Source of the DNA: Lentzea sp. NBRC 105346
GTDB taxonomy: Bacteria > Actinomycetota > Actinomycetes > Mycobacteriales > Pseudonocardiaceae
Length of the DNA: 64,000 nucleotides
NCBI RefSeq assembly: GCF_030269605.1
Contig: NZ_BSTQ01000010.1
Span: 62,001 to 126,000 of the forward strand
Reading direction: 5' to 3'
Below are positions 9,263 through 64,000 of the stretch, one piece after another (within the stretch, counting starts at the first letter, position 1; the number at the start of each line of letters is the position of its first letter). The translations under genes and the position numbers were made by a program. Under the pieces are notes generated by a model. It saw nothing but the letters and a program-made list of their open reading frames with translations. It was not told the DNA's origin and searched no databases.

Positions 9263-9283
9263 CTGGCTCTCCTTGTTCACAGA

Positions 9284-10768: not shown

Positions 10769-10783
10769 GGTCGTCCTTCCGGA

Positions 10784-12951: not shown

Positions 12952-12964
12952 CGTTTCCGCCCTC

Positions 12965-45391: not shown

Positions 45392-46507
45392 ATGACGCTC
45401 AGGTTCGGTGCATTCGTCTCCCCGCTCCACCCGCCGGGCGAGGACCCGACACTGTCGCTCGACCGCGACCTCGAACTGGCCCAGCACCTCGACCGCCTCG
45501 GCTTCGCCGAGTACTGGGTCGGCGAACATCACTCCAGCGGCTGGGGCACCGTGCTGTCGCCCGAGCTCTTCGTCGCGACGGCCGCCGAACGCACCCGCCA
45601 CATCCGCATCGGCACCGGTGTCGTCAGCCTGCCGTACCACAACCCCTACATGGTCGCCTCGCGCTTCGTGCAGCTCGACCACCTGACCCGCGGGCGCGCG
45701 ATGTTCGGTATGGGCGCGGGGTCCTCGCCCGCCGACATGTACATGATCGGCGTCGATCCGGCGGAGACGCGCCGCATGACGGCCGAAGCGTTGCAGGCCG
45801 TGCACCACCTGATGACGTCCGACGAGCCCCTGACGATGGAGACCGACTGGTTCACGCTCAACGAGGCGTCGCTGCAGTTGCGCCCGTACTCGAGCGCGCC
45901 GGACCTCGCGATCTCCAGCGCGCGCACGCCGAACAGCATGCGGCTGGCGGGCAGGTACGGCATCAGCCCGATCTCGTTCGGCGCGCCGATCCCCGGCATG
46001 CCACGCGTCGACCTGGCCGCGCAGTGGCGGCACGCCGAGGAGGGCGCGGCCGAGCACGGGAACAACATCGGCCGTTCGTCGTGGCGCATCACCATGCCGA
46101 TGCACGTGGCCGAGACCACGCAGGAGGCCATGGACGACGTCCGCGCCGGCCTCAAGGACGTCGCGCACGGCTACTTCCGCGACACGCTCGGCATCCCGGT
46201 GAACTTGGCGGGCAAGGACATCGAGGACATCGTGGCGGACGGCGACGCAATCGTCGGCTCGGTCGACGACTGCGTCATCGCCATCCAGCGCCTGCTGGAG
46301 GAGACCGGCGGCTTCGGCACGCTGCTCGTGACGGTCCGCGACTGGACGTCGTGGGAGAAGACGTTGCGCAGCTTCGACCTGCTCGCCCGCTACGTCGCGC
46401 CGCACTTCTCCGGCTCCACCGCGCGCGTGCATCGGTCGAGCGACTGGGTGAAGAGCAAGCAGTCCCACTTCGTCGCCCAGGCCAAGGCTGCGAAGGCGAG
46501 CGCCTGA
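45392..46507 (+). CDS. Luciferase-like (LLM) flavin-dependent monooxygenase
   Basis: 371 residues. FAEYWVGEHHSSGWGTVLSPELF, GTGVVSLPYHNP and GRAMFGMGAGSSP are typical of bacterial luciferase-fold monooxygenases, which use reduced flavin supplied by a separate reductase. A flavin reductase is encoded nearby at 47.3-47.8 kb. In asukamycin-type pathways a flavin monooxygenase and reductase pair takes part in epoxyquinol formation on the mC7N core; this protein is a candidate for that step. It is the only plus-strand gene between the exporter and the convergent operon. The preceding 230 bases hold no further gene. Confidence 0.88.
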   Translation: MTLRFGAFVSPLHPPGEDPTLSLDRDLELAQHLDRLGFAEYWVGEHHSSGWGTVLSPELFVATAAERTRHIRIGTGVVSLPYHNPYMVASRFVQLDHLTRGRAMFGMGAGSSPADMYMIGVDPAETRRMTAEALQAVHHLMTSDEPLTMETDWFTLNEASLQLRPYSSAPDLAISSARTPNSMRLAGRYGISPISFGAPIPGMPRVDLAAQWRHAEEGAAEHGNNIGRSSWRITMPMHVAETTQEAMDDVRAGLKDVAHGYFRDTLGIPVNLAGKDIEDIVADGDAIVGSVDDCVIAIQRLLEETGGFGTLLVTVRDWTSWEKTLRSFDLLARYVAPHFSGSTARVHRSSDWVKSKQSHFVAQAKAAKASA

Positions 46508-46518
46508 CCGCACAACGG

Positions 46519-46549
46519 AAAGGGCCGAGGCGGTTCGCCTCGGCCCTTT
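46519..46549. terminator. Bidirectional terminator
   Basis: A perfect 14-bp stem AAAGGGCCGAGGCG / CGCCTCGGCCCTTT with a 3-base loop, A-rich on one side and T-rich on the other, sits between the convergent monooxygenase and FabG genes. Confidence 0.88.
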
Positions 46550-46564
46550 GGCGTTCCAAAGGAC

Positions 46565-47263
46565 TCAGTGACCCATGCCGAGCCCGCCGTCGACGGGGAT
46601 AACGGCACCGGTCACGTAGGACGCCGACGCGAGCCACGTGACGGCGGAGGCGATCTCCTCCGGCGACGCGGATCGGCGCAACGGAACCTCGGACACGATC
46701 TGCGCCTTGCGCGCATCGGACAGCTTGTCGGTCATGTCCGTGTCGACCAGACCGGGCGCGACGACGTTCACGGTGATGTTGCGCGGACCGAGCTCGCGCG
46801 CCAGCGACCGGGCGAAACCGACGAGGCCCGCCTTGCTGGCGGCGTAATTGGCCTGTCCCTCGGATCCGCGCAGGCCGGCGACGGACGACACGAAGACGAT
46901 GCTGCCGGCACGGGCGCGGACCATGTCCGGCACCGCGGCCTTGGCGGTGCGGTAGGCGCCACCGAGGTTGGTGTCCAGGACGCGGTGGAACTTGTCCTCG
47001 TCCATGCGCAGCAACAGCGTGTCCTCGGTGATGCCTGCGTTCGCGACCACCACGGACACCGGGCCGTGTACCTCGGACGCCTCGGCGAACGCGGCGGCGA
47101 CCTGGTCCGGATCCGTGACGTCGCACTTGATGCCCAGCAGGCCGTCCGGAGCGCCGGAACCGCGGTGCGTCACCGCGACCTTGTCGCCCGCCGCGGCGAA
47201 CGCCCGCGCGATCGCGAGCCCGATGCCCCGGTTGCCGCCGGTGACCAGAACAGAGCGTGTCAT
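46565..47263 (-). CDS. FabG-like 3-oxoacyl-ACP reductase
   Basis: 232 residues from ATG 47263 (AAGGA upstream; overlaps the previous stop as ATGA). Cofactor motif GGNRGIG, NAG (catalytic Asn region), Ser in SSVAG and the YAASK pair are intact. The C-terminal YVTGAVIPVDGGLGMGH is classical FabG. It would reduce beta-keto groups on acyl-ACP chains made by the ketosynthases of the cluster. It is the last gene of the minus operon. The cluster shows no separate dehydratase in view. Confidence 0.92.
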   Translation of the reverse strand: MTRSVLVTGGNRGIGLAIARAFAAAGDKVAVTHRGSGAPDGLLGIKCDVTDPDQVAAAFAEASEVHGPVSVVVANAGITEDTLLLRMDEDKFHRVLDTNLGGAYRTAKAAVPDMVRARAGSIVFVSSVAGLRGSEGQANYAASKAGLVGFARSLARELGPRNITVNVVAPGLVDTDMTDKLSDARKAQIVSEVPLRRSASPEEIASAVTWLASASYVTGAVIPVDGGLGMGH

Positions 47264-47781
47264 GACCAATCCTTCTTGAGAGACGAGTAACCGCCCTGGT
47301 GGAACAGCAGCGGTTCGCGGTCCACAGTGGACGAGTGCAGAGCCGCGACCCGGCCGAGGAACAGCACGTGGTCTCCACCGGGGTACTGGCGGTAGGTCTC
47401 GCACTCCAGGGACACCACAGCGTCGCGCACCAGGGCGACACCCGTGTCACCGACCAACGACCCCAGTACGTCCTGCGCGGCGTGGCCGGTCGGCCGGTCG
47501 CGCCGCGCGAACAGGTCGGACAGCGGCCGCTGGTCGGCGGCGAGCACGTTGACCGCGAACCCGCCGGTAGACTCGATCGCGCCGCGCAGGCGGCCGGACT
47601 CCCCGATGCTGATCAGCACCAGCATCGGGTCGAGCGAGATCGACACCACCGCGTTGGCGGTCATGGCCACGGTCGCCGCGTCACGGCCCGCGGTGAGCAC
47701 CGCTACGCCGGTTGGGAACATGCCCATCGCGCGCCGGAACGCCACGGTGTCGGGAGACTTCTCGAAAACCGGTGCGGACAT
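47260..47781 (-). CDS. Flavin reductase
   Basis: 173 residues. FRRAMGMFPTGVAVLTAGRD, TANAVVSISLDPMLVLISI and FAVNVLAADQ are hallmarks of the HpaC-type NAD(P)H:flavin oxidoreductases. These small dimers supply FMNH2 or FADH2 to two-component monooxygenases; the luciferase-like monooxygenase at 45.4 kb is the obvious partner. It overlaps the FabG gene by four bases and follows the thioesterase by 12. Confidence 0.92.
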   Translation of the reverse strand: MSAPVFEKSPDTVAFRRAMGMFPTGVAVLTAGRDAATVAMTANAVVSISLDPMLVLISIGESGRLRGAIESTGGFAVNVLAADQRPLSDLFARRDRPTGHAAQDVLGSLVGDTGVALVRDAVVSLECETYRQYPGGDHVLFLGRVAALHSSTVDREPLLFHQGGYSSLKKDWS

Positions 47782-47793
47782 CGGGGATTCCCT

Positions 47794-48204
47794 TCAGCGC
47801 TTGTGCACCGCGCAGGTCATGCGCGCGCTGGACGTCAGCCGCCCGCGCGCGTCGGTGATGCGGATGTCGTACGTGGCAACGCGATCGCCCTCGTGCAACG
47901 GGGTGCACACGCCGGTCACGACGCCGCCGCGGGCGGGCCGGTGGTGCGTGCAGGTCAGTTCGAGGCCCGCGACCGCGCCGTCCGGCGCCACGTGCAGCGC
48001 CGCCGCCACCGAGCCGAGCGTCTCGGCCAGCACGGCGTTCGCGCCGCCGTGCAGCCAGCCGAACGGCTGCCGGTTGCCCTCGACGGGCATGGTGGCGACC
48101 AGGCGTTCCGGGTCCCACGACGTGATCTCGATGCCCATGCGCGTCGTCAACTGATCTGCGTACACACCGTCCAAAGCGGACAGAATCGTCTGTGGAATCG
48201 TCAC
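47794..48204 (-). CDS. PaaI-like hotdog thioesterase
   Basis: 136 residues from GTG 48204, which overlaps the previous stop as GTGA. GWLHGGANAVLAETLGSVAA is the active-site helix of the PaaI/YbgC-like family, followed by the GLELTCTHHRPARGG strands. It likely hydrolyses stalled or finished acyl-CoA or acyl-ACP thioesters in the pathway. Chain release to the amine is more likely done by the amide synthase, so this is probably an editing enzyme. Confidence 0.88.
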   Translation of the reverse strand: MTIPQTILSALDGVYADQLTTRMGIEITSWDPERLVATMPVEGNRQPFGWLHGGANAVLAETLGSVAAALHVAPDGAVAGLELTCTHHRPARGGVVTGVCTPLHEGDRVATYDIRITDARGRLTSSARMTCAVHKR

Positions 48205-48686
48205 GCCGTCACCACCGTCGCGGTCGCGGTGTGCTCGGCGGGCGGCTGAACGGCCAGGCCGGTCGCCGCGGCGGCGACCCGTTGCGTCGGCGCCAGCTCC
48301 ACCTCGACGAGCAACACCCGGTCGATGTCGCCCTCGGCCAGCATGTCCTGTGCCATCTCGGCGGCCTGCGACTCGCCGAACACCGAGATGCAGCAGATCG
48401 GGCCGGTGATCCCGTGCTCGCGTGTGACGTAGCCGAGGATCGACGTCGGCACGGATTGGTAGAACAGCAAGGGGTTGTGCACCTGCCCGGCGAGCTGCCG
48501 CCGGCTGGCGGTGTCCGTCGTGGTCGAGTCGCCGAACGTCGTGGCCAGCAGCACGCCGGTGCGTTCGCCGACCACCTCGTGGTGTTCGAGGCACTCGTCC
48601 ACCACGGCCTTCACCAGCGGGCTGAACTGCGACTCGATGAATCCGGGCACGGGTGGCGCATCCCCGGTGCGGGTCACGCTCGTCAT
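48201..48686 (-). CDS. Truncated ketosynthase-like partner protein
   Basis: 161 residues from ATG 48686 (overlapping the ketosynthase stop as ATGA). VLLATTFGDSTTTDT, NPLLFYQSVPTSILGYV and ITGPICCISVFGESQAAEM match the N-terminal half of ketosynthases of the beta-ketoacyl-synthase N-domain family seen in aryl-polyene clusters. The C-terminal half with the HGTGT and GH motifs is missing. A ketosynthase-interacting, chain-length-factor-like role is suggested by position and translational coupling. Residual catalysis is unlikely. Confidence 0.75.
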   Translation of the reverse strand: MTSVTRTGDAPPVPGFIESQFSPLVKAVVDECLEHHEVVGERTGVLLATTFGDSTTTDTASRRQLAGQVHNPLLFYQSVPTSILGYVTREHGITGPICCISVFGESQAAEMAQDMLAEGDIDRVLLVEVELAPTQRVAAAATGLAVQPPAEHTATATVVTA

Positions 48687-49816
48687 GGACGCTCCAGGAG
48701 GATCGCGGTGTTGAGGCCGCCGAACGCGGCGTTGACCGACAGCACGGTCCGCACGGACTGCTCGCGCGGCGCGTTCGGAATCCAGTCGAGGTCGCACGCG
48801 GGGTCGGCCACGTCGTACCCGGCCGTCGGCGGCAGCACGCCGTCACGCAGCGCCAGCAACGAGATCACCGCCTCGACCGCGCCCGCGCCTTCCAGCATGT
48901 GACCGGTGGTGCTCTTGGTCGAGCTGATCGGGATGCTCGGGGCCGCGCTGCCGAGAACCTTGTGCAGCGCCACGGTCTCCGTGCTGTCGTTGATCTTCGT
49001 GCCGGTGCCGTGCGCGTTGATGTAGCCGATGTCGGACGGCGCCTTGCCGGACCGCCGCAGCGCGCCTTCGATGGCCGCGGTGAGGCCCTTGCCCTCGGGA
49101 TCGGGCTGGCACACGTGGTACGCGTCGGACGCCATGCCCCACCCGGCGACCCGTGCGAGCGGTTCGCCACCACGGGCACGCACCCGGTCGGCCGACTCCA
49201 GCACGAGTGCCGCGGCCCCGTCACCCAGCAGCAGACCGCTGCGGGTTCCGGAGAACGGCCGGATGCGCCCGTCCTTGGCGAACGCGCGCCCGGAGTCGAA
49301 GTTCGCAAAGCTCTCCCGCTCCACGAGGTACGCCCCCGCACACACCGCCACGTCGAGCTTGCCGCGCTGGATCAGCCGGGCCGCGTGCAGGATCGCGTTC
49401 GCCGACGCCACACAGGCGTTGACGAACGCGATCCGCGGACCGGTCTGTGCCAGCTCCTGGGCCAGCAGCTCCGCCAGGCGTGCGGGCACGCTGTGGTCCA
49501 CGCCCGCGGTCTCGCCGTCACGCCAGAACCGTTGCACCGGAAGGTGATCGCCCTGGGTTCCGACGAACACGCCCGCCTTGTCGCTGCCGGCGCCGGCCAT
49601 CTCGAGCGCCGCTTCCGAGACCCGCCGCAATGCGGCCAGCTGCCCCGGCGCCTCACCGGGGAACGCGGCGGCGTGCTTGCCGCGGAACGGGGTGGTGTCG
49701 AACCGGTCGACCGGCCCGAACGCGTGCTCGCCCGCGAACACCCCGTCCCGCAGCGCGTCCGTCCCGAAGCCGTGCGCCGTGAAGATGCCGTACCCGGTGA
49801 CGAAGACGTCGTTCAT
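48683..49816 (-). CDS. Beta-ketoacyl-ACP synthase (KAS II type)
   Basis: 377 residues from ATG 49816 (ATGA overlap with the carrier protein gene). The catalytic Cys135 (NACVASA), His269 (NAHGTGT), Lys301 and His306 (GHMLEGAGA) of elongating ketosynthases are all present. The enzyme condenses malonyl-ACP onto a growing acyl chain. In manumycin-type pathways iterative type II ketosynthases build the polyene chains. It is short for a KAS II (about 410) at the N-terminus. It is coupled to a truncated ketosynthase-like partner downstream. Confidence 0.92.
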   Translation of the reverse strand: MNDVFVTGYGIFTAHGFGTDALRDGVFAGEHAFGPVDRFDTTPFRGKHAAAFPGEAPGQLAALRRVSEAALEMAGAGSDKAGVFVGTQGDHLPVQRFWRDGETAGVDHSVPARLAELLAQELAQTGPRIAFVNACVASANAILHAARLIQRGKLDVAVCAGAYLVERESFANFDSGRAFAKDGRIRPFSGTRSGLLLGDGAAALVLESADRVRARGGEPLARVAGWGMASDAYHVCQPDPEGKGLTAAIEGALRRSGKAPSDIGYINAHGTGTKINDSTETVALHKVLGSAAPSIPISSTKSTTGHMLEGAGAVEAVISLLALRDGVLPPTAGYDVADPACDLDWIPNAPREQSVRTVLSVNAAFGGLNTAILLERP

Positions 49817-50298
49817 CGCGCCTTGGCCAGGTACTCGTGGATCCGGGCGACCGTCGTCAGCTCGGCGGCGGCCTCCTCGTCGAACTCGATCTCGAGGCCG
49901 TACTGCTCGGTGAGCTGGTGCTGGAACCACACCAGCGACAGCGAGTCGAGCACGACCTCGGCGTCGTCGGGCACATCGGTGCCCTCGGCCAGGATCTTGC
50001 TGCTCACCAGCAGCGCCTTGACGGCCTCGATGTCCAACGGCCGCAGGCCCTTCACGGTCGCGACGAGGCCACCGACGGTGCCGGTCGCCAGGTCGTCGAT
50101 CACGTCGTCGGGCAGGCCGATGCCGTACTCGCGCTCGATGGCGACGGTCAGCTCGACCATCGTCAGCGACTCGAGCTCCAGGCCAGCGGGGCCGAGCGGC
50201 GTGTCCGGGCCGGTGCCGTCGGGCAACGGCATGTTCAGCGTGTCGCGGACGACGCCGAGGATGAACGAGGTCACGGAGTCGTTCTCAACAGTTGTCAC
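49813..50298 (-). CDS. Tandem acyl carrier protein (two ACP domains)
   Basis: 161 residues from GTG 50298 (AGAGGA upstream). Domain 1 (about 8-85) has the phosphopantetheine Ser44 in LELESLTMVEL. Domain 2 (about 88-160) has Ser119 in VLDSLSLVWF. Both serines lie at the start of helix II as required. Doubling carriers raises output in some polyketide systems; here the two could also hold different chains. The domains differ in sequence, so they are not a recent duplication. Confidence 0.9.
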   Translation of the reverse strand: MTTVENDSVTSFILGVVRDTLNMPLPDGTGPDTPLGPAGLELESLTMVELTVAIEREYGIGLPDDVIDDLATGTVGGLVATVKGLRPLDIEAVKALLVSSKILAEGTDVPDDAEVVLDSLSLVWFQHQLTEQYGLEIEFDEEAAAELTTVARIHEYLAKAR

Positions 50299-50318
50299 GT
50301 CAGGTCCTCTGGTTCGTG

Positions 50319-51521
50319 TCAGGTGGTGGCGTCGACGACGCCGGGGATGTCGCGCACGGGGTCGGTCTCCGCGAGGTAGTCCACGCCCGGCACGCCGAAC
50401 CCGTGCAGTGCCAGCGATTCCCGCAGGTAGCCGTCGAGGTCGCCGAGCAGGGCGAGGTTCGACGAGTCCACGAGCTCCCAGCGCCGGCGCAGGTCCGCCT
50501 GCACCTCGGGCAGCAGCTCGCGGTCGTCGAGCCGGATGCGGCGTTCCTCGTCGGTGCGCAGCGGGCCGGGGCCGTACAGGAACCCGGCGAGCAGGCGGTG
50601 TGCCTGGTCGACCAGGTTCTCGGCCAGCCCACGGTCGCGGGTCACCTTGGACAGCAACAGCGTGTACAGCGCCGGGAACGGCATGACGCGCGACGCCTGC
50701 GTGATCAACGCACGCGCGGCCACGGCGTGTGCGCGCCCGCCGGTGCCGGTGAGTCGATCGTCGAGCAGCCGGGCGGTCGCCTCCAGGTGTTCCTTGGCGC
50801 GGCCCAGAGTGCCGAGACGGTAGGTCTCGGCCAGGAACTCCCCGCCCACGTAGGTGAACGCGACGGTGTCGGCACCGGGTGCGAGCACGTCGCCGTCCTG
50901 CAACGCCGTGATCCACCGGGCCCAGTCGTCGCCGCCCATGACGGCGACGGTCTGCGCGATCTCGGGGTCGGTGGCGGCCGGCATGGTCGCCACCCGCACC
51001 TCGCCGGTGTCGGCGTCGAACGACTTGTCGGTGTACGGCGTGCCGATCGTCTTGATCGACGACCGGTGCACGTGGCCGGTCACCGGGTCCGTTCTGGTCG
51101 GTGCGGCGAGGCTGTAGACCACGAGGTCGACCTGACCGAGGGTGGACCGGATCAGCGACACGGTCTCGGCCTTGGTGCGGTCGGCGAACGCGTCGCCGAT
51201 CACCGTCCGTCCGAAGTGGCCGGACGCGGCCAGTTCCTCCTCGAGCGCCGCACTGTTGTACCAGCCGGCGGTGCCGGTGCGGCCCGGTGTGCCGGGCCGT
51301 TCCAGGCAGACGCCGATGGTGGACGCGCCGCCACCGAAGGCGGCGGCGATCCGGGTCGACAGGCCGAGGCCGGCCGACGAGCCGATGACCAGCACCCGCG
51401 CCGGGCCGTTGAACGTGCCCAGCACCTTCACCTGGTCGATCGCCTGCCGCACGCGCTCGGCGCAGCCGTCGGGGTGCGCGGTCACGCAGACCGCGCGCCG
51501 CAGCACGGGTTCGACGATCAT
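50319..51521 (-). CDS. fabV: FabV-type enoyl reductase
   Basis: 400 residues from ATG 51521 (ATGA overlap). IVEPVLRRAVCVTAHPDGC, the cofactor loop GSSAGLGLSTRIAAAFGGG and the catalytic Y-x8-K (YRLGTLGRAK) identify FabV, the largest enoyl-ACP reductase class and unrelated in sequence to FabI active sites. It reduces trans-2-enoyl-thioesters with NADH. Its presence inside a polyene-type operon is unusual, since fully conjugated chains need no such step; it may act on a saturated part of the acyl chain. Confidence 0.9.
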   Translation of the reverse strand: MIVEPVLRRAVCVTAHPDGCAERVRQAIDQVKVLGTFNGPARVLVIGSSAGLGLSTRIAAAFGGGASTIGVCLERPGTPGRTGTAGWYNSAALEEELAASGHFGRTVIGDAFADRTKAETVSLIRSTLGQVDLVVYSLAAPTRTDPVTGHVHRSSIKTIGTPYTDKSFDADTGEVRVATMPAATDPEIAQTVAVMGGDDWARWITALQDGDVLAPGADTVAFTYVGGEFLAETYRLGTLGRAKEHLEATARLLDDRLTGTGGRAHAVAARALITQASRVMPFPALYTLLLSKVTRDRGLAENLVDQAHRLLAGFLYGPGPLRTDEERRIRLDDRELLPEVQADLRRRWELVDSSNLALLGDLDGYLRESLALHGFGVPGVDYLAETDPVRDIPGVVDATT

Positions 51522-52894
51522 CGAGCCACCCCTAGGAGCTCGGCGTTGCGCAGCAGCTTGCCGTTGGCCGTCCGCGGCAACGCGGGCAGCACGGTGAACC
51601 GCTTGGGGATCTTGTAGTTGCTCAGCCTGGTGCGGCAGAACGCCGCCAGGTCGGATACGCACACACCGTCGGGCGAACCGACGTGCGCCTCGATGCCCTC
51701 GCCGTGCACGACGACCACCTCGGCGACCGCGGGATGCTCGGCGAGCACCGCCTCGATCTCGGTCAGGTCGACCTTCAGCCCGCCGATCGCGACGAGTGAG
51801 TCAGCGCGGCCGGTGACCGAGAGGACGTCGCCGTCCAGCGTGCACAGGTCGAACGAGCGCAGCCAGCCGTCGGCGAACCGCACCTTCTCGTCCTGCTGCA
51901 GGTACGGCGTCGCCGGCAGACCGATCCGAAGCTCACCGTCCACAACGGACACCGGTACGCCGGGCGCGGGCCGGCCGACCGCGGGCAGCGGGAACTCTCC
52001 CGCGAGGTCGGTGGCGATGATGCCCACCTCGGTCATGCCGTACGCCTGCCCGATGCGCACCCCGTACCGGTCCAGGAACCGTTGGTGCACCTCGGCCGTG
52101 AGCCGCTCGCCACCGCTGACGGCCAGCCTCAGCGACGGCAGCGCCGGCACGTGACGGGCCCGGCTGAGCAGATCGAAGTGGAACGGCACGCCGAAGACCG
52201 CGTTGATCTCCTGGTCGACCAGCGTGCGCAGCAACGCCTCCGGCTGCAGCTTGGGCGTGAACACCGTGGTGGCGCCCGAGTTCAGCCCGTGCAACAGCCC
52301 GCCGACGAGGCCGAACGAGTGGATCGTCGAGTTGAGCAGCAGCACGCGCTCGCCGCGGCGGGGCATGCCGTCGATGAGCGAGAACCGGTCGATCTCGGCC
52401 AGCAACGACTCCGCCGTCCGCCCGATGACCTTGGGGCGTCCCGTCGAGCCCGAGCTGAGCTGCACCAGCCGGTGCTCGCTCTCCGCATCCCGCCCGTCGC
52501 GTCGCCACTCGACGAACACCTCGTACTCGTTGCGGAACGAGGTGACCGCCGTCGGCGGGTCGAGCGAACGGACGTAGTACGCGGGACGGCAGAGCTTCAG
52601 CATCCGCTCCACCTCGTCCGGCTTGAGCCGGTGGTCGAGCAGCAGCACCTGCGCGCCGAGCGACCAGAGCGCGAGCAGCGCCCAGACGCTCGTGAAGCTC
52701 GGCGGCAGGCGCAGGGCGACGGTGCTGCCGGGACCGATGCCGTGCGAGGCGAAGATGAGCGCTTCGGCCGTGACCTGTTCACGCACGGCTCGCCGGGTGA
52801 TCACGTGCTCGCCGTGCACCAGCACGGCGTCGTGGTCGTCGCCGGCCAGCAGGTGCTCACCCCACCACGACAGCTGGGTTTCGATTGTCGTCAC
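51518..52894 (-). CDS. AMP-dependent acyl/aryl ligase (probable 3-amino-4-hydroxybenzoate adenylase)
   Basis: 458 residues from GTG 52894. Core motifs: LSSGSTGRPKVIGR (P-loop), YGMTEVG, SVTGRADSLVAIGG and a C-terminal PRTANGKLLRN with the catalytic Lys. It activates a carboxylic acid as the acyl-adenylate and transfers it to a carrier or CoA. It lies directly downstream of the two genes that make 3-amino-4-hydroxybenzoate and directly upstream of carrier proteins, so loading of that aryl starter is the likely job. It is shorter than typical ligases (about 520). Confidence 0.87.
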   Translation of the reverse strand: MTTIETQLSWWGEHLLAGDDHDAVLVHGEHVITRRAVREQVTAEALIFASHGIGPGSTVALRLPPSFTSVWALLALWSLGAQVLLLDHRLKPDEVERMLKLCRPAYYVRSLDPPTAVTSFRNEYEVFVEWRRDGRDAESEHRLVQLSSGSTGRPKVIGRTAESLLAEIDRFSLIDGMPRRGERVLLLNSTIHSFGLVGGLLHGLNSGATTVFTPKLQPEALLRTLVDQEINAVFGVPFHFDLLSRARHVPALPSLRLAVSGGERLTAEVHQRFLDRYGVRIGQAYGMTEVGIIATDLAGEFPLPAVGRPAPGVPVSVVDGELRIGLPATPYLQQDEKVRFADGWLRSFDLCTLDGDVLSVTGRADSLVAIGGLKVDLTEIEAVLAEHPAVAEVVVVHGEGIEAHVGSPDGVCVSDLAAFCRTRLSNYKIPKRFTVLPALPRTANGKLLRNAELLGVAR

Positions 52895-52926
52895 CCTTCA
52901 TCCCTCCGGTTCTCCCTCGTCTCAGG

Positions 52927-54860: not shown

Positions 54861-55061
54861 CGCTGAACTCCTTTCGTGGAGGTTGCCATCACGATCGGCG
54901 TTTCCAGCGCGTTGTCCAAGACCCGTTCCACCTGGTCGAGACGAGTGACCGGAATGGGTTGCGGGGCCTACACCTTCGTCTAGGACCGTCGGGTCTTGGG
55001 GACGCACCTGCGGGCTTGCCAGCATCTGGTCATTCCATTTCCGGGTTTGAGGAGCAGATGC
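54861..55061. promoter_or_regulatory. Divergent promoter region of the two main operons
   Basis: 201 bases. Inverted half-sites AAGACCCG (54918-54925) and CGGGTCTT (54990-54997), with extended similarity GTCC/GGAC outside them, lie 64 bases apart and may bind a dimeric regulator that controls both operons. No gene seen. Confidence 0.45.
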
Positions 55062-57058: not shown

Positions 57059-57059
57059 G

Positions 57060-58058
57060 ATGAAACAAGTCGGCATCCGTGCCGTCGGCACGTACCTGCC
57101 CGAACGCGTGGTGACGAACCTGGAGCTCGAAGAGCTGCTGACGACCCGCGACGACTGGATCCGCGACAACATCGGCGTTGAGACCCGCCGCGTCGCGGCC
57201 GACGACGAGTGGACGTCGGACCTGGGCGCCAAGGCGCTGCGAGACGCATGTGAACAGGCCGGCGTCCGGACGGACGAGATCGACCTCGTGATCGTCGGCA
57301 CCTACACGCCGGACAACATGGCGCCGCCCGTCGCGATGCTCGTCATCGAGAAGGCCGGGGTGACCGGCGCCACCGGGTTCGACGTCAACGCGGGTGCCTG
57401 CCCCAGCAGCGTGTTCGCGCTCGATGTCGGCGCGAAGTACGTGGCGTCGGGTCACTACAAGCGGGTGGCCGTCGTGCTCGCGGACGTGAACACCAAGACC
57501 CTGGACTGGAAGGACGTCGGGCCCGCCGTGATCTTCGGCGACGGCGCGGCGTGCTACCTCCTCGAAGAGGCTACAACGGGAGGCATCGGCCCCGTTCTGC
57601 TGCGCAGCGATCCCACGCGGTACCAATCGGTGTGGGTCAAGCGCGAGGAGCGCAGGTTCCGTGACGGCCGGCCGCGGCGCAGCGTTTTCGGTGACAACTT
57701 CGCCTCCCTCAAGGGCAACGACGTTCGCGAGTTCGCGGTTGGCGAGGTGCCCGGGTTCATCAAGGAACTGCTGGGAGACAAGGACATCGCCGACGTCGAC
57801 CTGTTCGCCTTGCACCAGGCCAACCTCTACATCGTCCGCGGGATCATGGACGGACTCGGCGTGGCGCACGACCGCACGGTGACCAACGTCCAGAAGTACG
57901 GCAACACTTCGGGCGCGAGCGTGCCGCTGGTGCTCCGGGAAGCCGTGGAGACCGGAAAACTCAAGCGGGGCGACACGGTCGTACTCGCCGCGTTCGGCTC
58001 CGGTCTCAGCATGGGCGCCGCGCTCGTCACGTGGTGCGGGCCGGAGGACTTCGCATGA
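57060..58058 (+). CDS. KAS III-like ketosynthase 1
   Basis: 332 residues from ATG 57060 (an in-frame TTG at 57051 overlaps the upstream stop). The KAS III triad is Cys114 (NAGACPSS), His252 (LHQANLYIV) and Asn282 (YGNTSGAS). KAS III enzymes start chains by condensing an acyl-CoA or acyl-ACP with malonyl-ACP. GACPSS in place of the usual GCAGF suggests an unusual starter. Paired with a second KAS III immediately downstream, it may start one of the two polyketide arms. Confidence 0.93.
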   Translation: MKQVGIRAVGTYLPERVVTNLELEELLTTRDDWIRDNIGVETRRVAADDEWTSDLGAKALRDACEQAGVRTDEIDLVIVGTYTPDNMAPPVAMLVIEKAGVTGATGFDVNAGACPSSVFALDVGAKYVASGHYKRVAVVLADVNTKTLDWKDVGPAVIFGDGAACYLLEEATTGGIGPVLLRSDPTRYQSVWVKREERRFRDGRPRRSVFGDNFASLKGNDVREFAVGEVPGFIKELLGDKDIADVDLFALHQANLYIVRGIMDGLGVAHDRTVTNVQKYGNTSGASVPLVLREAVETGKLKRGDTVVLAAFGSGLSMGAALVTWCGPEDFA

Positions 58059-59077
58059 GGGGCGTGCACGCCGCGATCACCGGGCTGGGCTCGTACCTGC
58101 CCTCGATCGAGGTCACCAACGCGATGCTGTGCGAGAAGATCGACAGCTCCGACGAGTGGATCCGCAGCCGCACCGGCATCCGCACACGCTACTGGGCGAC
58201 ACCGGAGGAAACGGTGGAGCACATGGCGATCGAGGCGGCGAAGGACGCGATCAAGCACGCCGGGATCACCGCGTCCGAGGTCGGCTGCGTCGTCGTCTCG
58301 ACGGTGTCGCACCTGCGGCAGTTCCCGTCGCTGGCCAGCGGTGTGGCGCACGGTGTCGGCGCGGACGACGCGGGCGCGTTCGACATCTCCGCCGGCTGCG
58401 CCGGATTCTGCTACGGGCTTCAGCTCGCCAGCGGCATGATCGCGGCACAGGACGCACAGCACGTGCTGGTCATCGCCGTCGAACGGCTCTCCGAGCTCGT
58501 CGACCAGGAGGATCGCAACACCAGCTTCCTGTTCGGCGACGGCGCGAGCGCGGCGGTCGTCAGCGCGTCCGACGAACCCGGCATCGGGCCGGTGGTCTGG
58601 GGTTCTGACGGGTCCCAGAAGGACACCATCCGGCAGAGCGTCTCATGGGCCGATCTTCAAACCGACCGCGACGCGTGGCCCGTGATCACCATGGACGGTC
58701 GCGAGGTCTTCCGTTGGGCCGCCTACGAAATGGGCCCGGCGGCCAAGAAAACGCTCGAACGGGCCGGTGTCACCGCGCAGGACCTCGACGCGTTCATCCC
58801 GCATCAGGCCAACCTGCGCATCACCGACGAACTGGTGAAGGGCCTCGACCTGCCGGAGCGGGTCGTCGTCGCACGCACGATCACCGAGCACGGCAACACC
58901 TCCGCCGTCTCGGTGCCACTGGCGATGCACCAGCTGCTCGCCACCGGCGAGGCCCCGGCGGGCGGTCTCGCGCTGCTGCTGTCGTTCGGCACCGGCCTCG
59001 TCTGGGCCGGACAGGTCGTCCGGCTTCCCCCGGCGCCACCGAAGGCGCCCACCAAAGCTGAAGGAGCAATCGCATGA
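58055..59077 (+). CDS. KAS III-like ketosynthase 2
   Basis: 340 residues; ATG overlaps the previous stop (ATGA). The triad is Cys115 (SAGCAGFCYGL), His250 (IPHQANLRI) and Asn281 (HGNTSAVS), all canonical for FabH. It is clearly distinct in sequence from ketosynthase 1, so the pair is not a recent duplication and probably differs in starter choice (for example a cyclohexanecarboxyl-CoA versus an aryl or short acyl primer). Which one uses which is unknown. Confidence 0.94.
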   Translation: MRGVHAAITGLGSYLPSIEVTNAMLCEKIDSSDEWIRSRTGIRTRYWATPEETVEHMAIEAAKDAIKHAGITASEVGCVVVSTVSHLRQFPSLASGVAHGVGADDAGAFDISAGCAGFCYGLQLASGMIAAQDAQHVLVIAVERLSELVDQEDRNTSFLFGDGASAAVVSASDEPGIGPVVWGSDGSQKDTIRQSVSWADLQTDRDAWPVITMDGREVFRWAAYEMGPAAKKTLERAGVTAQDLDAFIPHQANLRITDELVKGLDLPERVVVARTITEHGNTSAVSVPLAMHQLLATGEAPAGGLALLLSFGTGLVWAGQVVRLPPAPPKAPTKAEGAIA

Positions 59078-59313
59078 CCACGCTGGAAACGTTGCGCGAC
59101 ATCATCGAAGAGGTCGCCGAGGTCCCCGCCGGCGGCATCACGCCGGAGAGCCACTTCGTCGACGACCTGCAGCTCGACTCGCTGGCAGTCGTGTCGCTGT
59201 TCGTGCTCGTCAAGCGCCGCATCGGGGTCGACGTGCCGGACGAGATCGCCGATCAGCTGACGACCGTCGGGCAGGCCGTCGCCTACCTGGAGCAGGGCGT
59301 CGTCCCGGTCTGA
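59074..59313 (+). CDS. Acyl carrier protein
   Basis: 79 residues, ATGA overlap with the KAS III gene. The phosphopantetheine site is Ser36 in DDLQLDSLAVV and the four-helix pattern is normal in length. Position directly after two KAS III genes suggests it carries the chains they start, in contrast to the tandem carrier on the other operon. Confidence 0.92.
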   Translation: MTTLETLRDIIEEVAEVPAGGITPESHFVDDLQLDSLAVVSLFVLVKRRIGVDVPDEIADQLTTVGQAVAYLEQGVVPV

Positions 59314-59339
59314 GCCGGAGACCGACACCGGAGGAAACC

Positions 59340-62231
59340 ATGCACCTTCTGCTCGAGCGCGGCCAGCACCCCCTGCGGGGAGAGGTGCTGGTCCCGCCTT
59401 CCAAGTACCACGCGCACCGCGCGTTGATCCTCGCCTCGCTCGCCGAGGGTACGAGCCGGATCACCGGGCTGAGCAACGCCCGGCACGTCGGCTACACGCT
59501 GCGGATGCTGCGCGACCTCGGCACCGAGATCGACGTGGACGCCGACGGCTACACCGTGCGCGGCGGCACCTACCGTCCCGCGCAGGAGTCCGTCACCGCG
59601 GGAAGTTCCGGCACCACGCTGTACTTCATGCTCGGCCTCGCGGCGCTGGCCGACCGCCCGGTGACCGTCACCGGTCAGAAGTACTTCCAGCGCAGGCCGG
59701 TCGGCCCGTTGCTGGACGCGCTGCGGGACCTCGGCGTCACGCTGGAGTCCGCGGACGGCTGCCCGCCGGTGCACGTTCAGCCCGGCAGGCCCAAGCGCGG
59801 ACACGTCCGCATCGCGGGCACGTTGTCCCAGTGGATCTCCGGCCTCGTACTGCTGGCACCGTTCGCCACCGGCCGCACGGTGATCGAGGTCGAGGGCGAG
59901 CTCAACGAGCGCCCGTACGTCGAGCTGACCGTGTCGATGATGCGGCAGTTCGGCCTGCGCGTGAACGTCTCCGATGACTGGCGCCGGTTCGAGATCGAGC
60001 CGAACCAGCAGGCGGTCGCCACCGACCTCACGCTGCCGCCGGACCTGGGTTCGGCCGCGTTCGGCATCGTCGCGTCGGCGATCCAGCCGGCGGACGTGCT
60101 GCTGCGCGGGATCAGCCGGCTCGACGGCGACGCGACCGATCACCCCGAGGTGGCGTTCCTGCGCGTCGTCCGCGAGATGGGCGTACCGATGACGCTGGAG
60201 GGCGACGGCGTGCGCATCAAGCACGACGGGATCCGGCTGCGCCCTACCACGATCGACTGCCGCGAGATCCCGGACATGCTGCCAGTACTGTCCACGTTGG
60301 CCTGTTTCGCCGACGGCGAGACGATCTTCGAGAACGTCGAGCACGTGCGGCTCAAGGAGTCCGACCGTGTCGCCGCGATGACGCAGCTCAACAAGATGGG
60401 CGGCGACCTGCGCATGACGGGCGACCGCCTCGTCGTCCGCGGTGTCCACGGACTCACCGGCGCCACGCTGTCGTCGTTCAACGACCACCGCGTGCTGATG
60501 TCCCTGGCACTGGCGGGCTCGGTCGCCGAGGGCGAGACGCGGTTGAGCTACCCGAACGCCTACCGCATCTCCTACCCCGACTTTCTCAAGGACATGACGC
60601 GCATCGGCGTCGACATCTCGGTTCAGCCCGGCAGCCACAAGGTTCCGTCGCTGTCCGGTCTCACCCTGCCGGAGATGCTGCGCCGCTGGTCCGGCGAACA
60701 TCCGGACGAGGTCGCGCTGGTCGAGGGCAGCACCGCGCTGACGTGGCGCGAGCTGGACGAGCGGGTCGACCGCGCGGCGGCTGCGTTGCTGAAGCTGGGG
60801 GTCCGGCCCGGTGAGCCGGTTGCCTACCAGCTGCCGAACTGGTCCGAGTTCGTGGAGATCACGCTGGCGACCCTGCGCATCGGCGCGGTGTGCTGCCCGC
60901 TGATGCCGATCTTCCGCGAGCGCGAGGTCGCGTTCATGCTCATGCGGTCCGGCGCGCGCGTGCTGTTCGTCGCCGACCGGTACCGCAACCGCAACCACGC
61001 GGCCGAGACCGCGGAATGGCTGGCCGAGGACCCGCAGCGGCTCGACGTGGTGGTCGTCGGCGGTGGCACGCTGCCCGCCGAGGACGGGTGGCACCTGTGG
61101 AGCGAGCTGCTCGAAAAGTCCGTTGTCGACCGTGCTGCGTTCCCTTCCGCCGACCCGAAGTCGACCGCGCAGCTGCTCTTCACCTCCGGCACCACCGGCG
61201 AGCCGAAGGGCGTGCGGCACCGCCACGACACGTTGAACCGTGCCGTGCGGGCGCAGGCGAAGCGGCTGGGGCTCACCGAGAACGACACCGTGTTCATCCC
61301 GTCGCCACTGGCCCACCAGACCGGCTTCCTTTACGGGATGTGGCTCGCGATCAACCTCGGCACCACCCAGGTGCTGCAGGCCGTGTGGGATGCCCCGGAG
61401 GCGCTGCGGGCCATGCGGGACAACAACGTCACGTTCGTGCAGGCCGCGACCCCGTTCCTGGCCGACCTCGCGCAGGCCGTCGAGGACGGCGAGCAGGCCC
61501 CGGAGGCGCTGCGGATCTTCGTCGCCACCGGCGCCGCCGTCCCGAGGACGCTGGCGTTGCGCGCCAAGGATGTCCTGGGCACCGCGGTGTGCGGCGCGTT
61601 CGGCACGACCGAGACGTGCCTGGGCTCGTTGTCCGCGCCGGACGACACACCGGGCACCGACGGCCGCGCGATGGACGGCGTTCGTCTGCGCGTCACGGAC
61701 GACAACGGTGCTGTGCTGCCCGCGGGTGTGGAAGGCAACTTCGAGCTGTGGTCGCCGATGTGCTTCGAGGGCTACCACGATCGCCCCGACCTCACTGCCG
61801 AGGCGTACACCGCCGACGGCTGGTACCGCACCGGCGACCTCGCGGTGATCGACGCCGACGGGTTCGTCCGGATCACCGGGCGCGTGCGCGACGTGATCAA
61901 CCGGGGTGGCGAGAAGGTACCGGTCGCGGAGATCGAGGAGTTGCTCTACCAGCACCCGTCGGTGATCGACGTGGCGCTGGTCGCGATGCCGGACGAGCGG
62001 CTCGGTGAGCGAGCGTGCGCGTTCGTCGTGCTCGCGCCGGACACCGACCTGGACCTGGAGGGCGTGCGCAAGCACCTCGACCAGCACGCGGTGTCGAAGT
62101 ACTACTGGCCGGAACGGCTCGAGATCGTGCCCCGGCTGCCGCGCAACCCCAGCGGCAAGATCCAGAAGTTCATCCTCCGGGACCAGGCGAAGTCCTTGCG
62201 CCCGCAGCAGTTCGAGGAGCACAACGCGTGA
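59340..62231 (+). CDS. EPSP-synthase-like domain fused to acyl-CoA ligase (PlmJK-type, cyclohexanecarboxylate pathway)
   Basis: 963 residues from ATG 59340 (GGAGGAAA upstream). Residues 1-430 are an enolpyruvyl-transferase fold with SKYHAHRALILAS, GSSGTT, VRLKESDRVAAM and FNDHRVLM. Residues about 440-963 are an AMP ligase with TSGTTGEPKGVRHR, a FGTTETC motif and catalytic Lys in RNPSGKIQ. The same fusion order occurs in phoslactomycin PlmJK; in ansatrienin the two are separate. These enzymes act on shikimate-derived acids on the way to cyclohexanecarboxyl-CoA. The true reaction of the EPSPS-like half is not settled in that pathway. The gene overlaps the dehydrogenase gene by GTGA. Confidence 0.9.
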   Translation: MHLLLERGQHPLRGEVLVPPSKYHAHRALILASLAEGTSRITGLSNARHVGYTLRMLRDLGTEIDVDADGYTVRGGTYRPAQESVTAGSSGTTLYFMLGLAALADRPVTVTGQKYFQRRPVGPLLDALRDLGVTLESADGCPPVHVQPGRPKRGHVRIAGTLSQWISGLVLLAPFATGRTVIEVEGELNERPYVELTVSMMRQFGLRVNVSDDWRRFEIEPNQQAVATDLTLPPDLGSAAFGIVASAIQPADVLLRGISRLDGDATDHPEVAFLRVVREMGVPMTLEGDGVRIKHDGIRLRPTTIDCREIPDMLPVLSTLACFADGETIFENVEHVRLKESDRVAAMTQLNKMGGDLRMTGDRLVVRGVHGLTGATLSSFNDHRVLMSLALAGSVAEGETRLSYPNAYRISYPDFLKDMTRIGVDISVQPGSHKVPSLSGLTLPEMLRRWSGEHPDEVALVEGSTALTWRELDERVDRAAAALLKLGVRPGEPVAYQLPNWSEFVEITLATLRIGAVCCPLMPIFREREVAFMLMRSGARVLFVADRYRNRNHAAETAEWLAEDPQRLDVVVVGGGTLPAEDGWHLWSELLEKSVVDRAAFPSADPKSTAQLLFTSGTTGEPKGVRHRHDTLNRAVRAQAKRLGLTENDTVFIPSPLAHQTGFLYGMWLAINLGTTQVLQAVWDAPEALRAMRDNNVTFVQAATPFLADLAQAVEDGEQAPEALRIFVATGAAVPRTLALRAKDVLGTAVCGAFGTTETCLGSLSAPDDTPGTDGRAMDGVRLRVTDDNGAVLPAGVEGNFELWSPMCFEGYHDRPDLTAEAYTADGWYRTGDLAVIDADGFVRITGRVRDVINRGGEKVPVAEIEELLYQHPSVIDVALVAMPDERLGERACAFVVLAPDTDLDLEGVRKHLDQHAVSKYYWPERLEIVPRLPRNPSGKIQKFILRDQAKSLRPQQFEEHNA

Positions 62232-63421
62232 CCGTCACCGACCTTTCCCCCATCGCAGTGTCCACTTCGAAAGCAGGGGGCGTGGACCCGTCCGACTTCG
62301 CCCGGCTGCGGGCGGAGATCACCGCGTTCGTCGACGGTCCCGCCGAGCGCTGGGCCGAGCGGATCGAGCAGACCGGTGTCGTCCCCGAGGAGCTGTGGGC
62401 CGAGCTGCGTTCGCTCGGCTACCTCTCGCTGGCCGCACCGCGCGAGTACGGCGGCGCCGGCCTGTCGTTCCCGCAGTGGATGGAACTGATGGAGATCTTC
62501 TCCCGCTCGCACGGCTCGCTGCGGATGATCGTGCACGTCGTCAACGGCACGTGGCGCGCGATGGACGCGTTCGCCGATGACGAGCAGCGCCGCAGGTTCG
62601 TGCTGCCGTCGATCGCGGGCGAGATCAAGACCGCGTTCACGCTGACCGAGCCGGACGCCGGTTCTGGTGCGGACATCCGGTCCACCGTGGTCCGCGAGGG
62701 CGACACGTACTACCTGAGCGGCCGCAAGCACCTCATCACGTTCGGCGTGCGGTGCGACTACTGGCTGCTCGCCGCGCGCGTCGAGGGCACCACAGGGCAT
62801 GAGGGCACGGTCGCGCTAATGGTGCCGCGCAACGCTCCGGGCGTCACGGTCGTCGACACGTCCGACACCATGGGCGTCACCGGCACCGACCACGCGCACC
62901 TCACGTTCGACCGCACGCCGGTCCCGGTCGCGAACCGGCTGGGCCGGGAGGGCGACGGCCTCGCCGTGGCACTGGGCGGTTTCCTCACGCCATCCCGGAT
63001 CTCGGTCGCGATGAGCTGCGTCGGTCTCGCCCGGCGGGCGCAGGAGCTGGCGTTCTCCTATGCGCGGCAACGGGAAACCTTCGGCAAGCCGCTCACCTCG
63101 CGGCAGGCCATCCAGTTCATGCTCGCCGAGAACGAGGCGGACATCGAGGCCGTGAAGCAGCTCGTCATGCACGCCGCACGCAGCTGGGAGGGCGGCGACC
63201 CCACCGCGTCGAAGCTCTCGTCGATGGCCAAGATGACGGCCGTGGACATGCTCGGCCGGGTCACGGACAAGGCGCTGCAGATCCACGGCGGGCTCGGTTA
63301 CTGGAAGACCAGCGCGATCGAGCGCGTGTACCGCGACGCGCGGGCGCAGCGATTCGAGGAGGGCACCAACGAGATCCAGAAGGCCGTCGTATTCCGCGAG
63401 ATGATGGAGGCCAACCGATGA
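62228..63421 (+). CDS. Acyl-CoA dehydrogenase (cyclohexanecarboxyl pathway, PlmL/AnsL-like)
   Basis: 397 residues from GTG 62228 (GTGA overlap). FTLTEPDAGSGADIRST (flavin and substrate loop), YARQRETFGKPLTSRQ and QIHGGLGYWKTSAIERVYRDAR are acyl-CoA-dehydrogenase signatures; FEEGTNEIQ carries the catalytic Glu position. In the cyclohexanecarboxyl-CoA route a dehydrogenase sits next to the EPSPS and ligase genes, exactly as here. It introduces or removes a ring double bond during the shikimate-to-cyclohexane reductions. Confidence 0.9.
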   Translation: MTVTDLSPIAVSTSKAGGVDPSDFARLRAEITAFVDGPAERWAERIEQTGVVPEELWAELRSLGYLSLAAPREYGGAGLSFPQWMELMEIFSRSHGSLRMIVHVVNGTWRAMDAFADDEQRRRFVLPSIAGEIKTAFTLTEPDAGSGADIRSTVVREGDTYYLSGRKHLITFGVRCDYWLLAARVEGTTGHEGTVALMVPRNAPGVTVVDTSDTMGVTGTDHAHLTFDRTPVPVANRLGREGDGLAVALGGFLTPSRISVAMSCVGLARRAQELAFSYARQRETFGKPLTSRQAIQFMLAENEADIEAVKQLVMHAARSWEGGDPTASKLSSMAKMTAVDMLGRVTDKALQIHGGLGYWKTSAIERVYRDARAQRFEEGTNEIQKAVVFREMMEANR

Positions 63422-64000
63422 GCAAGGTCGCACTGATCACCGGCGCTTCGCGGGGCATCGGCCGCGAGCTGGCGCTGCGCCTGGCCAGCACCGGCGCGAG
63501 CGTCGTGGTCAACTACAAGAAGAACGCCGATCTGGCCGAGAAGACCGTGGCGCAGATCGAGGAGCTCGGTGGCAGCGGCATCGCGGTTCAGGCGGACGTG
63601 GAGACCGAATCGGGCATCTCCTCGTTGTTCGACGCCGTGCACTCCACCTACGGGCGCCTGGACTTCTTCGTGTCCAACGCGGCGGCGAGCGCGTTCAAGA
63701 ACATCATGGACCTCAAGCCGCACCACATCGACCGCTCCTACGCGATGAACCTCAAGCCGTTCATCCTCGGCGCGCAGGAGGCGGTACGACTGATGGACGA
63801 CGGCGGCCGCATCGTCGCGTTGTCCAGCTACGGCAGCATCCGCGCGTACCCGACGTACGCGACACTCGGCGCGATGAAGGCAGCGATCGAGGCGTGGGTG
63901 CGGTACATGGCCGTGGAGTTCGCTCCGTACGGCATCAACGTCAACGCCGTCAACGGCGGCCTGATCGACTCGGACTCGCTGCACTACTTCTACGGCGTGC
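63418..64000 (+). CDS. FabL/ChcA-like enoyl reductase of the SDR superfamily (3' end outside window)
   Basis: At least 194 residues, cut by the right edge; ATG overlaps the dehydrogenase stop (ATGA). Cofactor motif GASRGIG; the catalytic pair is Y-x6-K (YATLGAMK), the enoyl-reductase spacing of FabI/FabL rather than the Y-x3-K of ketoreductases, and the end NAVNGGLIDSDSLHYF is close to FabL. In the cyclohexanecarboxyl pathway the SDR-type ChcA performs three enoyl reductions; this gene is a good candidate for ChcA or for the companion SDR. A downstream gene cannot be judged. Confidence 0.85.
   Translation, partial: MSKVALITGASRGIGRELALRLASTGASVVVNYKKNADLAEKTVAQIEELGGSGIAVQADVETESGISSLFDAVHSTYGRLDFFVSNAAASAFKNIMDLKPHHIDRSYAMNLKPFILGAQEAVRLMDDGGRIVALSSYGSIRAYPTYATLGAMKAAIEAWVRYMAVEFAPYGINVNAVNGGLIDSDSLHYFYGV

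Follow-up and report, generated by a model that had tools for sequence, protein, structure and literature searches.

A candidate C5N-free manumycin-group gene cluster with cyclohexanecarboxyl starter genes in Lentzea sp. NBRC 105346

A manumycin-type cluster without recognizable C5N genes

The 64,000-nucleotide stretch of the Lentzea sp. NBRC 105346 genome analysed here, hereafter the window (G000:C10:62001-126000), carries a single gene cluster that combines genes for 3-amino-4-hydroxybenzoate (3,4-AHBA), a putative amide synthase and a cassette for a cyclohexanecarboxyl-CoA starter, and in which no genes for the C5N unit were found. We put at about 0.68 the probability that its product is a manumycin-group compound devoid of C5N, predicted to be a cyclohexyl-polyenoyl amide of 3-(3-amino-4-hydroxyphenyl)propanoate that may also be oxidised on the ring. 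The best reading is that of a mosaic, in which a putative upper arm and starter of asukamycin type are joined to a putative lower arm of carpatamide type. The parts are all of known kinds, and it is their combination that is new: no C5N-free cyclohexyl manumycin was found in the titles and abstract openings of the searched literature, the coverage of which leaves out most subscription journals.

The assembly is a 9.39-Mb draft in 67 contigs, 98.27% complete. Genes were called with a codon-usage script over C10:42001-179999 and named with Pfam and NCBIfam profiles; all cluster coordinates follow the numbering of the window, so that values above 64000 lie in the right flank beyond its end. With the edges set by judgement from gene content, the cluster spans from about 43,035 to about 71,320, i.e., it continues for 7.3 kb beyond the window. 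It opens with genes for a TetR regulator (43035) and an MFS pump (from 43744), earlier than the start at 45392 given in the initial annotation, and closes with paired dehydratase genes (68852-69593) followed by LuxR and TetR regulators up to 71320. The gene types which that annotation had named from the letters and open reading frames were recovered by the profile searches, and the best Pfam matches of the named types all exceed the Pfam gathering scores. When catalytic motifs were read by eye, none of the listed enzymes looked broken and the listed frames were open.

For comparison, the small ketosynthase partner, a chain-length factor (CLF)-like protein, was searched for in 392 genomes of a Streptomyces-like genus, yielding 37 matches in 35 genomes; together with three loci of the window's own genus, 40 loci were examined, some of them over stretches shorter than 20 kb. 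The asukamycin cluster (GQ926890) is known to us from citing papers, and a cluster in genome G863, assigned by gene content, stands in for it.

The suggestion that the product is asukamycin found no support for its C5N half. With the 5-aminolevulinate synthase (ALAS) model TIGR01821 (cut-off 338.55 bits), no protein scored above the cut-off in the right flank, where the initial annotation had advised looking for such a gene, or elsewhere in the assembled genome, the two matches reaching 298 and 193 bits. The former (C13:38074) was rejected as a glycine C-acetyltransferase (665 bits against a cut-off of 460) encoded beside threonine dehydrogenase. The manumycin-type clusters of G863, G085 and G100, which served as positive controls, gave 548.5, 534.6 and 536.4 bits, respectively, so that three of the four genomes pass and that of Lentzea fails; G085 has three matches above the cut-off. 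Given that the cyclohexane genes are present and the C5N genes were not found, the identification as asukamycin fails and the claim of a cyclohexane starter stands. Without the genes for the other end, the product is probably shorter and simpler than asukamycin.

Upper arm and starter genes of asukamycin type

Among the 40 loci, G863 alone has both C5N and cyclohexane genes. Its gene order is D1-D2-D3, MFS, C8, C9, ligase, DHQS-II, aldolase, acyl carrier protein (ACP), ACP, ketosynthase (KS), CLF, FAD oxygenase, LLM-type oxygenase, ketoreductase (KR), flavin reductase, thioesterase, arylamine N-acyltransferase (NAT), KAS III, KAS III, ACP, EPSPS-ligase, acyl-CoA dehydrogenase (ACAD), ChcA, OYE, TetR, LuxR. 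The run from NAT through both KAS III genes, ACP, EPSPS-ligase, ACAD, ChcA and OYE to TetR (56231 to 66662 in our numbering) is collinear in the two clusters, at 53-80% identity. They further share the 3,4-AHBA genes, the ligase (55%), KS (54%), CLF (48%), KR (74%), flavin reductase, hotdog thioesterase (77%), both oxygenases, MaoC-type dehydratases and LuxR. By contrast, D1-D3 are present in G863 and lacking in the Lentzea cluster, which in turn has genes for FabV, a DsbA-TPR protein and DAHP synthase not seen in the 59-kb G863 stretch; the lower-arm carriers are fused in the window and separate in G863, and the CLF, as called, measures 161 aa in the former versus 270 aa in the latter.

The candidate amide synthase is the NAT (56231-57058, plus strand; Acetyltransf_2, 2.4e-43), which is 53% identical to its counterpart in G863, 49% to those in G085 and G100 and 37% to that on a plasmid of Streptomyces sp. 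NBC_01343. Its best match in the PDB, 8k51_B, is an arylamine N-acyltransferase, and the motifs GGNC, WDHLL and LVDVSF are seen by eye. In asukamycin biosynthesis, the NAT AsuC2 is reported to be the amide synthase on the basis of a knockout (PMC11213898). The gene is followed on the same strand by a C3-type KAS III (57060-58058; PRK09352, 301.5 bits against a cut-off of 249; 74% to G863, 71% to G085, 59% to NBC_01343), a C4-type KAS III (58055-59077; PRK09352, 372 bits; 73%, 65% and 36%, respectively) and a C5-type ACP (59074-59313; PP-binding, 2e-12; 66% to G863). Both KAS III enzymes display Cys-His-Asn, and the order and reciprocal best hits of the four genes are those of G863 and G085, in line with the upper arm proposed initially.

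The genes for the predicted ring oxygenases are likewise in place, with reciprocal best hits. They comprise an LLM-type flavin monooxygenase (45392-46507, plus strand; Bac_luciferase, 1.8e-46; 58% to G863, 57% to G085, 53% to NBC_01343) with its presumed partner flavin reductase (47260-47781, minus strand; Flavin_Reduct, 8.6e-37; 61% to G863), and a FAD monooxygenase (55062-56234, plus strand; FAD_binding_3, 6.3e-20; 39% to G863), for which a start at the ATG at 55062 includes the GAGPAG motif and is preferable to the called one at 55152.

The cyclohexanecarboxyl-CoA cassette begins with an EPSPS-like domain fused to a cyclohexanecarboxylate-CoA-ligase-like domain (59340-62231, plus strand; TIGR01356, 329.6 bits with a cut-off of 287.25; TIGR03208, 468 bits, below the cut-off of 792; 69% to G863, 60% to G640, 57% to G429). 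An acyl-CoA dehydrogenase (62228-63421, plus strand; 80% to G863, 75% to G640) and a ChcA-like short-chain dehydrogenase/reductase (SDR) of enoyl reductase type (63418-64224, plus strand, cut by the window end at 64000; adh_short_C2, FabL-like, with Y-X6-K by eye; 79% to G863, 78% to G640) come next, followed beyond the window by a reductase of OYE/dienoyl-reductase type (64229-66208; 59% to G863). The latter two are the remaining cyclohexanecarboxyl genes, and the four-gene cassette, at 59-80% identity to G863, upholds the proposed cyclohexanecarboxyl-CoA starter. The phoslactomycin cassette, plmJK-plmL-ChcA-plmM (PMC5852498), is listed with these four functions in identical order, and the cassette itself is therefore already known; that of phoslactomycin lies beside a modular type I polyketide synthase (PKS), whereas ours lies beside KAS III enzymes. 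None of 3202 plasmid records searched with the EPSPS-ligase covers 80% of the query.

A lower-arm operon with an enoyl reductase

The 3,4-AHBA core can be assigned to a DhnA-type aldolase of AvaI type (54033-54860, minus strand; DeoC, 1.2e-49; PRK07226, 317 bits against a cut-off of 241; 63% to G863) and a 3,4-AHBA synthase of DHQS-II (AvaH) type (52927-54036, minus strand; DHQS, 2.4e-110; PRK02290, 513 bits against 375; 72% to G863). Both exceed the NCBIfam subfamily cut-offs, which bears out the aldolase/DHQS-II pair of the initial annotation; a PDB search with the DHQS-II protein gave nothing at E<=1e-5. The remaining lower-arm genes are all on the minus strand. They encode a 3,4-AHBA ACP ligase of A1 type (51518-52894; AMP-binding, 8.2e-45; 54-55% to the DHQS-II-adjacent ligases of contig C21 of the same genome, G863, G085 and NBC_01343), a FabV enoyl reductase (50319-51521; NF043048, 441.7 bits with a cut-off of 400; Y-X8-K by eye), a fused tandem ACP of 161 aa (49813-50298), a KS (48683-49816; ketoacyl-synt domains; NACVAS, NAHGTGT and TTGHML by eye; 52-58% to related KS), a short CLF-like partner of 161 aa (48201-48686; no Pfam match; 46-49% to cma-, manumycin- and carpatamide-type partners), a hotdog thioesterase (47794-48138; 4HBT and TIGR00369; 67-79% in NBC_01343, G100, G085, G863 and NBC_01340) and a FabG-like KR (46565-47263; YxxxK by eye; 74-76% in G863, G085 and G100). 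The thioesterase probably releases the lower arm, and FabV is predicted to saturate it.

The fused carrier contains two ACP stretches in one frame; aligned with the separate A2/A3-type carriers, its N half is of the extender type and its C half of the starter type, the latter with the Trp/His pair (VWFQHQ) of CmaA3-type carriers. In the cma starter carrier, this pair has been linked to ligase recognition (PMC10777205). A profile search with the CLF gave weak matches, the best (E 0.0014) to a KAS II, and a contig scan with the KS returned 80 KAS-type loci at 31-44% identity, none of which was used.

The initial annotation counted an enoyl reductase among the starter-pathway genes; fabV lies in the lower-arm operon, and the reductase suited to that role is the ChcA-like SDR at 63418-64224. 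FabV is rare: at E<=1e-80, it was found in one of the 392 genomes of the Streptomyces-like genus (G862), outside any AHBA cluster, and no match occurs in any of the 40 CLF loci (37 from the Streptomyces-like genus and three from the window's own). The same operon order, aldolase-DHQS-ligase-FabV-ACP-ACP-KS-CLF-hotdog, is found in the NBC_01343 plasmid cluster, which also holds genes for flavin reductase, FAD and LLM oxygenases, NAT, two KAS III, DsbA and alpha-ketoacid dehydrogenase and, as in the Lentzea cluster, no C5N genes, in the 40 kb seen. FabV and DsbA of this carpatamide-like cluster are 57% and 40% identical to ours, whereas its NAT and second KAS III, at only 37% and 36%, are far more distant than those of asukamycin type. 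The starter supply differs too, being of the branched-chain (BCKDH) type in NBC_01343 and cyclohexanecarboxyl in the window; none of window genes 28-58 matches the BCKDH genes at E<=1e-5. From these comparisons, we read the Lentzea cluster as a mosaic. In the gene-by-gene comparison of clusters, the KS is closest to that of C21 (58%) and the MFS and aldolase are closest to NBC_01343, so that not every gene follows one parent.

The carpatamide cluster ctd (CP162609), as described in PMC11595529, has one KS, two KAS III and a NAT, three oxidoreductases, and an enoyl reductase to which the saturation of the lower chain is assigned; carpatamides I-M have a C3 arm, and ctd12 and ctd27 are the proposed amide genes. 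An enoyl reductase in the AHBA lower-arm operon together with the lack of C5N genes is thus common to the carpatamide type and the Lentzea cluster.

The cma/ava cassette I-H-A1-ACP-ACP-KS-CLF is also present in the window, with FabV inserted and the ACPs fused; the NAT, KAS III, FabV and starter genes set the cluster apart from those of cma and ava, as does its lack of diazotase, nitrite and denitrification genes. In cma of Kutzneria albida, CmaA1 loads 3,4-AHBA on CmaA3, CmaA2 is the expected malonyl carrier, and one condensation leads to p-coumaric acid, compared with two in ava, which yields avenalumic acid (PMC10777205).

A second 3,4-AHBA cluster, with the cma gene order, is present in the same genome on contig C21 (L023, G000:C21:9000-28999; 3924-15791) and includes lyase, FAD protein, diazotase-like and denitrification-like genes. 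Identity to the corresponding window proteins is 54% for its ligase, 58% for its KS and 46% for its CLF-like partner. The diazotase, E, D and B genes of C21 have no reciprocal match among window genes 28-58, and for its A7-like gene the only reciprocal match is weak, at 29% over 165 aa, the partner being an epimerase-type gene (72422-73186) that lies beyond the cluster.

Other KS-CLF cassettes were met during the search. Three close copies of a different conserved cassette occur in Streptomyces-like genomes (L196, L203 and L211, in G640, G946 and G715), with no 3,4-AHBA genes in the stretch read. A KS-CLF-hotdog trio close to the manumycin type, with a hotdog protein 79% identical to that of the window, is present in L144 (NZ_CP108366.1 919928-960356) and L194 (G983), where the stretches read contain neither 3,4-AHBA genes nor an ALAS match. 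G002 has a weak CLF match (E 2.2e-6).

Predicted pathway

From gene content, order and homology, we propose a route in which each reaction, the number of extensions and the end group are predictions. The aldolase/DHQS-II pair would make 3,4-AHBA, which the A1-type ligase would load on the fused carrier at its starter half. Together with its short partner, the KS would add probably one malonyl unit, and KR, a dehydratase and FabV would reduce the chain to 3-(3-amino-4-hydroxyphenyl)propanoyl, to be freed by the hotdog thioesterase. In parallel, shikimate, the supply of which may be helped by the cluster DAHP synthase, would be converted to cyclohexanecarboxyl-CoA by the EPSPS-ligase, the acyl-CoA dehydrogenase and the ChcA-like and OYE-type reductases. 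Extension of this starter to a cyclohexyl polyene would fall to the KAS III pair, its carrier and the MaoC/FAS1-type dehydratases; the NAT would couple the polyene to the aryl amine, and the LLM/flavin-reductase pair and the FAD monooxygenase would probably oxidise the ring. An unreduced, polyene lower arm is a manumycin trait, against which FabV in the operon argues.

Number of extensions and alternative readings

Several observations weigh against this interpretation. The product is predicted from genes alone and none has been seen. The likeness to ctd is taken from published text, which reports no chain-length factor, and carpatamide L keeps its lower-arm double bond, so that the enoyl reductase need not give full saturation (PMC11595529). 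Neither the CLF nor the KS settles the number of extensions. In the CLF-like partner, the aligned core is preceded by 15 residues and followed by 32, front lengths being dependent on the start calls used. Tails measure 37-69 residues in ten cma-type proteins (fronts 0-22), 79-140 in 18 rows grouping with ava, 72-120 in six ALAS-bearing clusters and 28-39 in four other CLFs. The NBC_01343 CLF, with 29 residues before and 72 after the core, has a tail as long as those of some manumycin CLFs, so that the types cannot be told apart by tail length. Tried as an indicator of how many extensions occur, tail length agrees for cma versus ava/manumycin and fails for NBC_01343 and the four short-tailed CLFs, and it was abandoned; a short tail is no more than a hint of a single condensation.

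Phylogenies were built for KS (45 rows) and CLF (46 rows); L226 gave no KS, and L204 was replaced by the joined G863 stretch. Three loci labelled CMA on account of no KR within 20 kb (L202, L216 and L219) group with AVA in both trees. The window KS falls outside an eight-row clade holding the six KS of ALAS-bearing clusters; it lies on the manumycin/carpatamide side, away from the single-extension cma type, and its branch is long and was flagged by the program, so that phylogeny does not fix the extension number. In the CLF tree, the placement of the window is unresolved. The single condensation is inferred from FabV and the carpatamide parallel instead.

A further point of the same kind is that, in a 67-contig draft, a C5N locus could lie in a gap. 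The pathway would then be a normal one of asukamycin type, with FabV acting on the upper arm or being a separate housekeeping or resistance reductase. In keeping with this, G863 is the closest of the compared clusters for the NAT, both KAS III, the ACP, the flavin reductase, both oxygenases, DHQS-II and the starter genes. We nevertheless consider it improbable: no ALAS exceeded the cut-off in the assembled genome, with three positive controls, the C5N genes lie inside the cluster in the four ALAS-bearing Streptomyces-like loci seen (L195, L198, L201 and G863) as well as in G085 and G100, and FabV is placed within the lower-arm operon both here and in NBC_01343 and in none of the other 40 CLF loci. 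We hold it just as doubtful that the cluster is a decayed or silent derivative of the asukamycin type that makes nothing or shunt amides. The missing D1-D3 and the short CLF could indeed reflect decay; against this, the frames are open, inspection by eye finds the catalytic motifs of KS, both KAS III, NAT, FabV, KR and the ChcA-like enzyme, and the cluster has the FabV and DsbA-like genes not seen in the G863 stretch. Most remote is a KS/partner pair like AmcF-AmcG of cispentacin, which performs one C2 elongation plus cyclisation (PMC10698177) and would here place a cyclopentanoid end where C5N stands: the NCBIfam scores for AmcF, AmcG and AmcB (212, 25 and 33 bits) fall below the curated cut-offs (325, 80 and 80), the relatives sharing 46-58% identity belong to 3,4-AHBA clusters, among which the experimentally characterised one, cma, makes a linear chain (PMC10777205), and the starter ligase is 54-55% identical to 3,4-AHBA-cluster ligases. 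Such ring closure was accordingly rejected on the profile scores as the principal interpretation.

An altered EPSPS domain

The EPSPS-like domain of the window was aligned with E. coli AroA, the C4 AroA of the same genome (above the aroA cut-off and taken as the housekeeping copy), the domains of G863, G640 and G429, and a stand-alone copy from contig C2. In E. coli numbering, it keeps K22, R27, G96, R124, S170, Q171, Y200, D313, K340, E341, R344 and D384-H385-R386; S23 is replaced by Tyr, S197 by Glu and K411 by Ile, and S169 is opposite a gap. These four changes are common to all five cyclohexane-type domains, i.e., that of the window and the four others. The C4 copy retains S23, S169, S170 and S197, with Lys at position 411 in one alignment and a gap in another; departures from E. 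coli at Y200, D313, N336 and K340 make it a less than ideal control. The change of N336 to His, seen in the C4 copy as well as in all five cyclohexane-type domains, is uninformative. We assume that the EPSPS serines bind shikimate-3-phosphate and that K411 touches phosphoenolpyruvate; on that assumption, the pocket for the phosphate has been dismantled, and the simplest guess is that cyclohexane-type domains may use a non-phosphorylated acceptor, shikimate. To our knowledge, the first step from shikimate to cyclohexanecarboxylate is unresolved. At somewhat less than even odds, we propose jointly that a reduced C3 arm of carpatamide type has taken the place of the C5N half, so that the amide is cyclohexyl-capped and C5N-free, a kind not met in the searched literature, and that the plmJK-type EPSPS domain has ceased to be an EPSP synthase and acts on unphosphorylated shikimate or its enolpyruvyl derivative, the fused ligase passing the product directly to CoA.

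The stand-alone cyclohexane-type EPSPS gene (L150, G000:C2:464000-483999, at about 9725-11006) is 74% identical to the fused domain and has a GC3 of 0.77 versus 0.94. Its neighbours are NRPS-type, ketosynthase and TauD-like genes, and no match to the other cyclohexane genes was found within 20 kb.

Regulators, exporter and flanking genes

At the left edge, the TetR regulator (43035-43598, minus strand; TetR_N and TetR_C_7) has a reciprocal best hit of 43% to the TetR of the NBC_01343 plasmid cluster, and the MFS exporter (43744-45159, plus strand; MFS_1, 2.6e-50) has reciprocal best hits of 49-55% in G863, G085, G100 and NBC_01343. To the right of the window, the cassette is followed by genes for a TetR regulator (66129-66662; 58% to G863), the DsbA-TPR protein (66711-67664; CPWC motif by eye), a class-II DAHP synthase (67720-68868), a MaoC dehydratase (68852-69238), a FAS1-type dehydratase (69231-69593), a LuxR regulator (70003-70689) and a further TetR regulator (70673-71320).

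Outside the cluster, an open frame of at least 8508 aa (window 1-5525, minus strand, and leftwards) runs past the left edge of the fetched sequence and, by size, perhaps encodes a giant NRPS or PKS. A 1062-aa frame (38810-41998, plus strand) with a low GC3 of 0.65 lies in a lower-GC stretch near a gene for an nSTAND1-WD40 protein (33846-36455); it has no Pfam or PADLOC match at E<=0.001, and its start looks restriction-endonuclease-like by eye.

Implications

Manumycins have been studied as farnesyltransferase inhibitors and as molecular glues (PMC8000086, PMC11595529). The cluster described here is a natural part-swap, which shows the genes that travel with the cyclohexyl arm versus those that travel with the lower arm. 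Absence of the C5N triplet accompanies presence of the enoyl reductase, with no direction of change implied. A short CLF in a lower-arm operon for which one condensation is expected bears on how small KS partners may set chain length. Furthermore, the EPSPS comparison makes the first step of cyclohexanecarboxylate formation a testable question.

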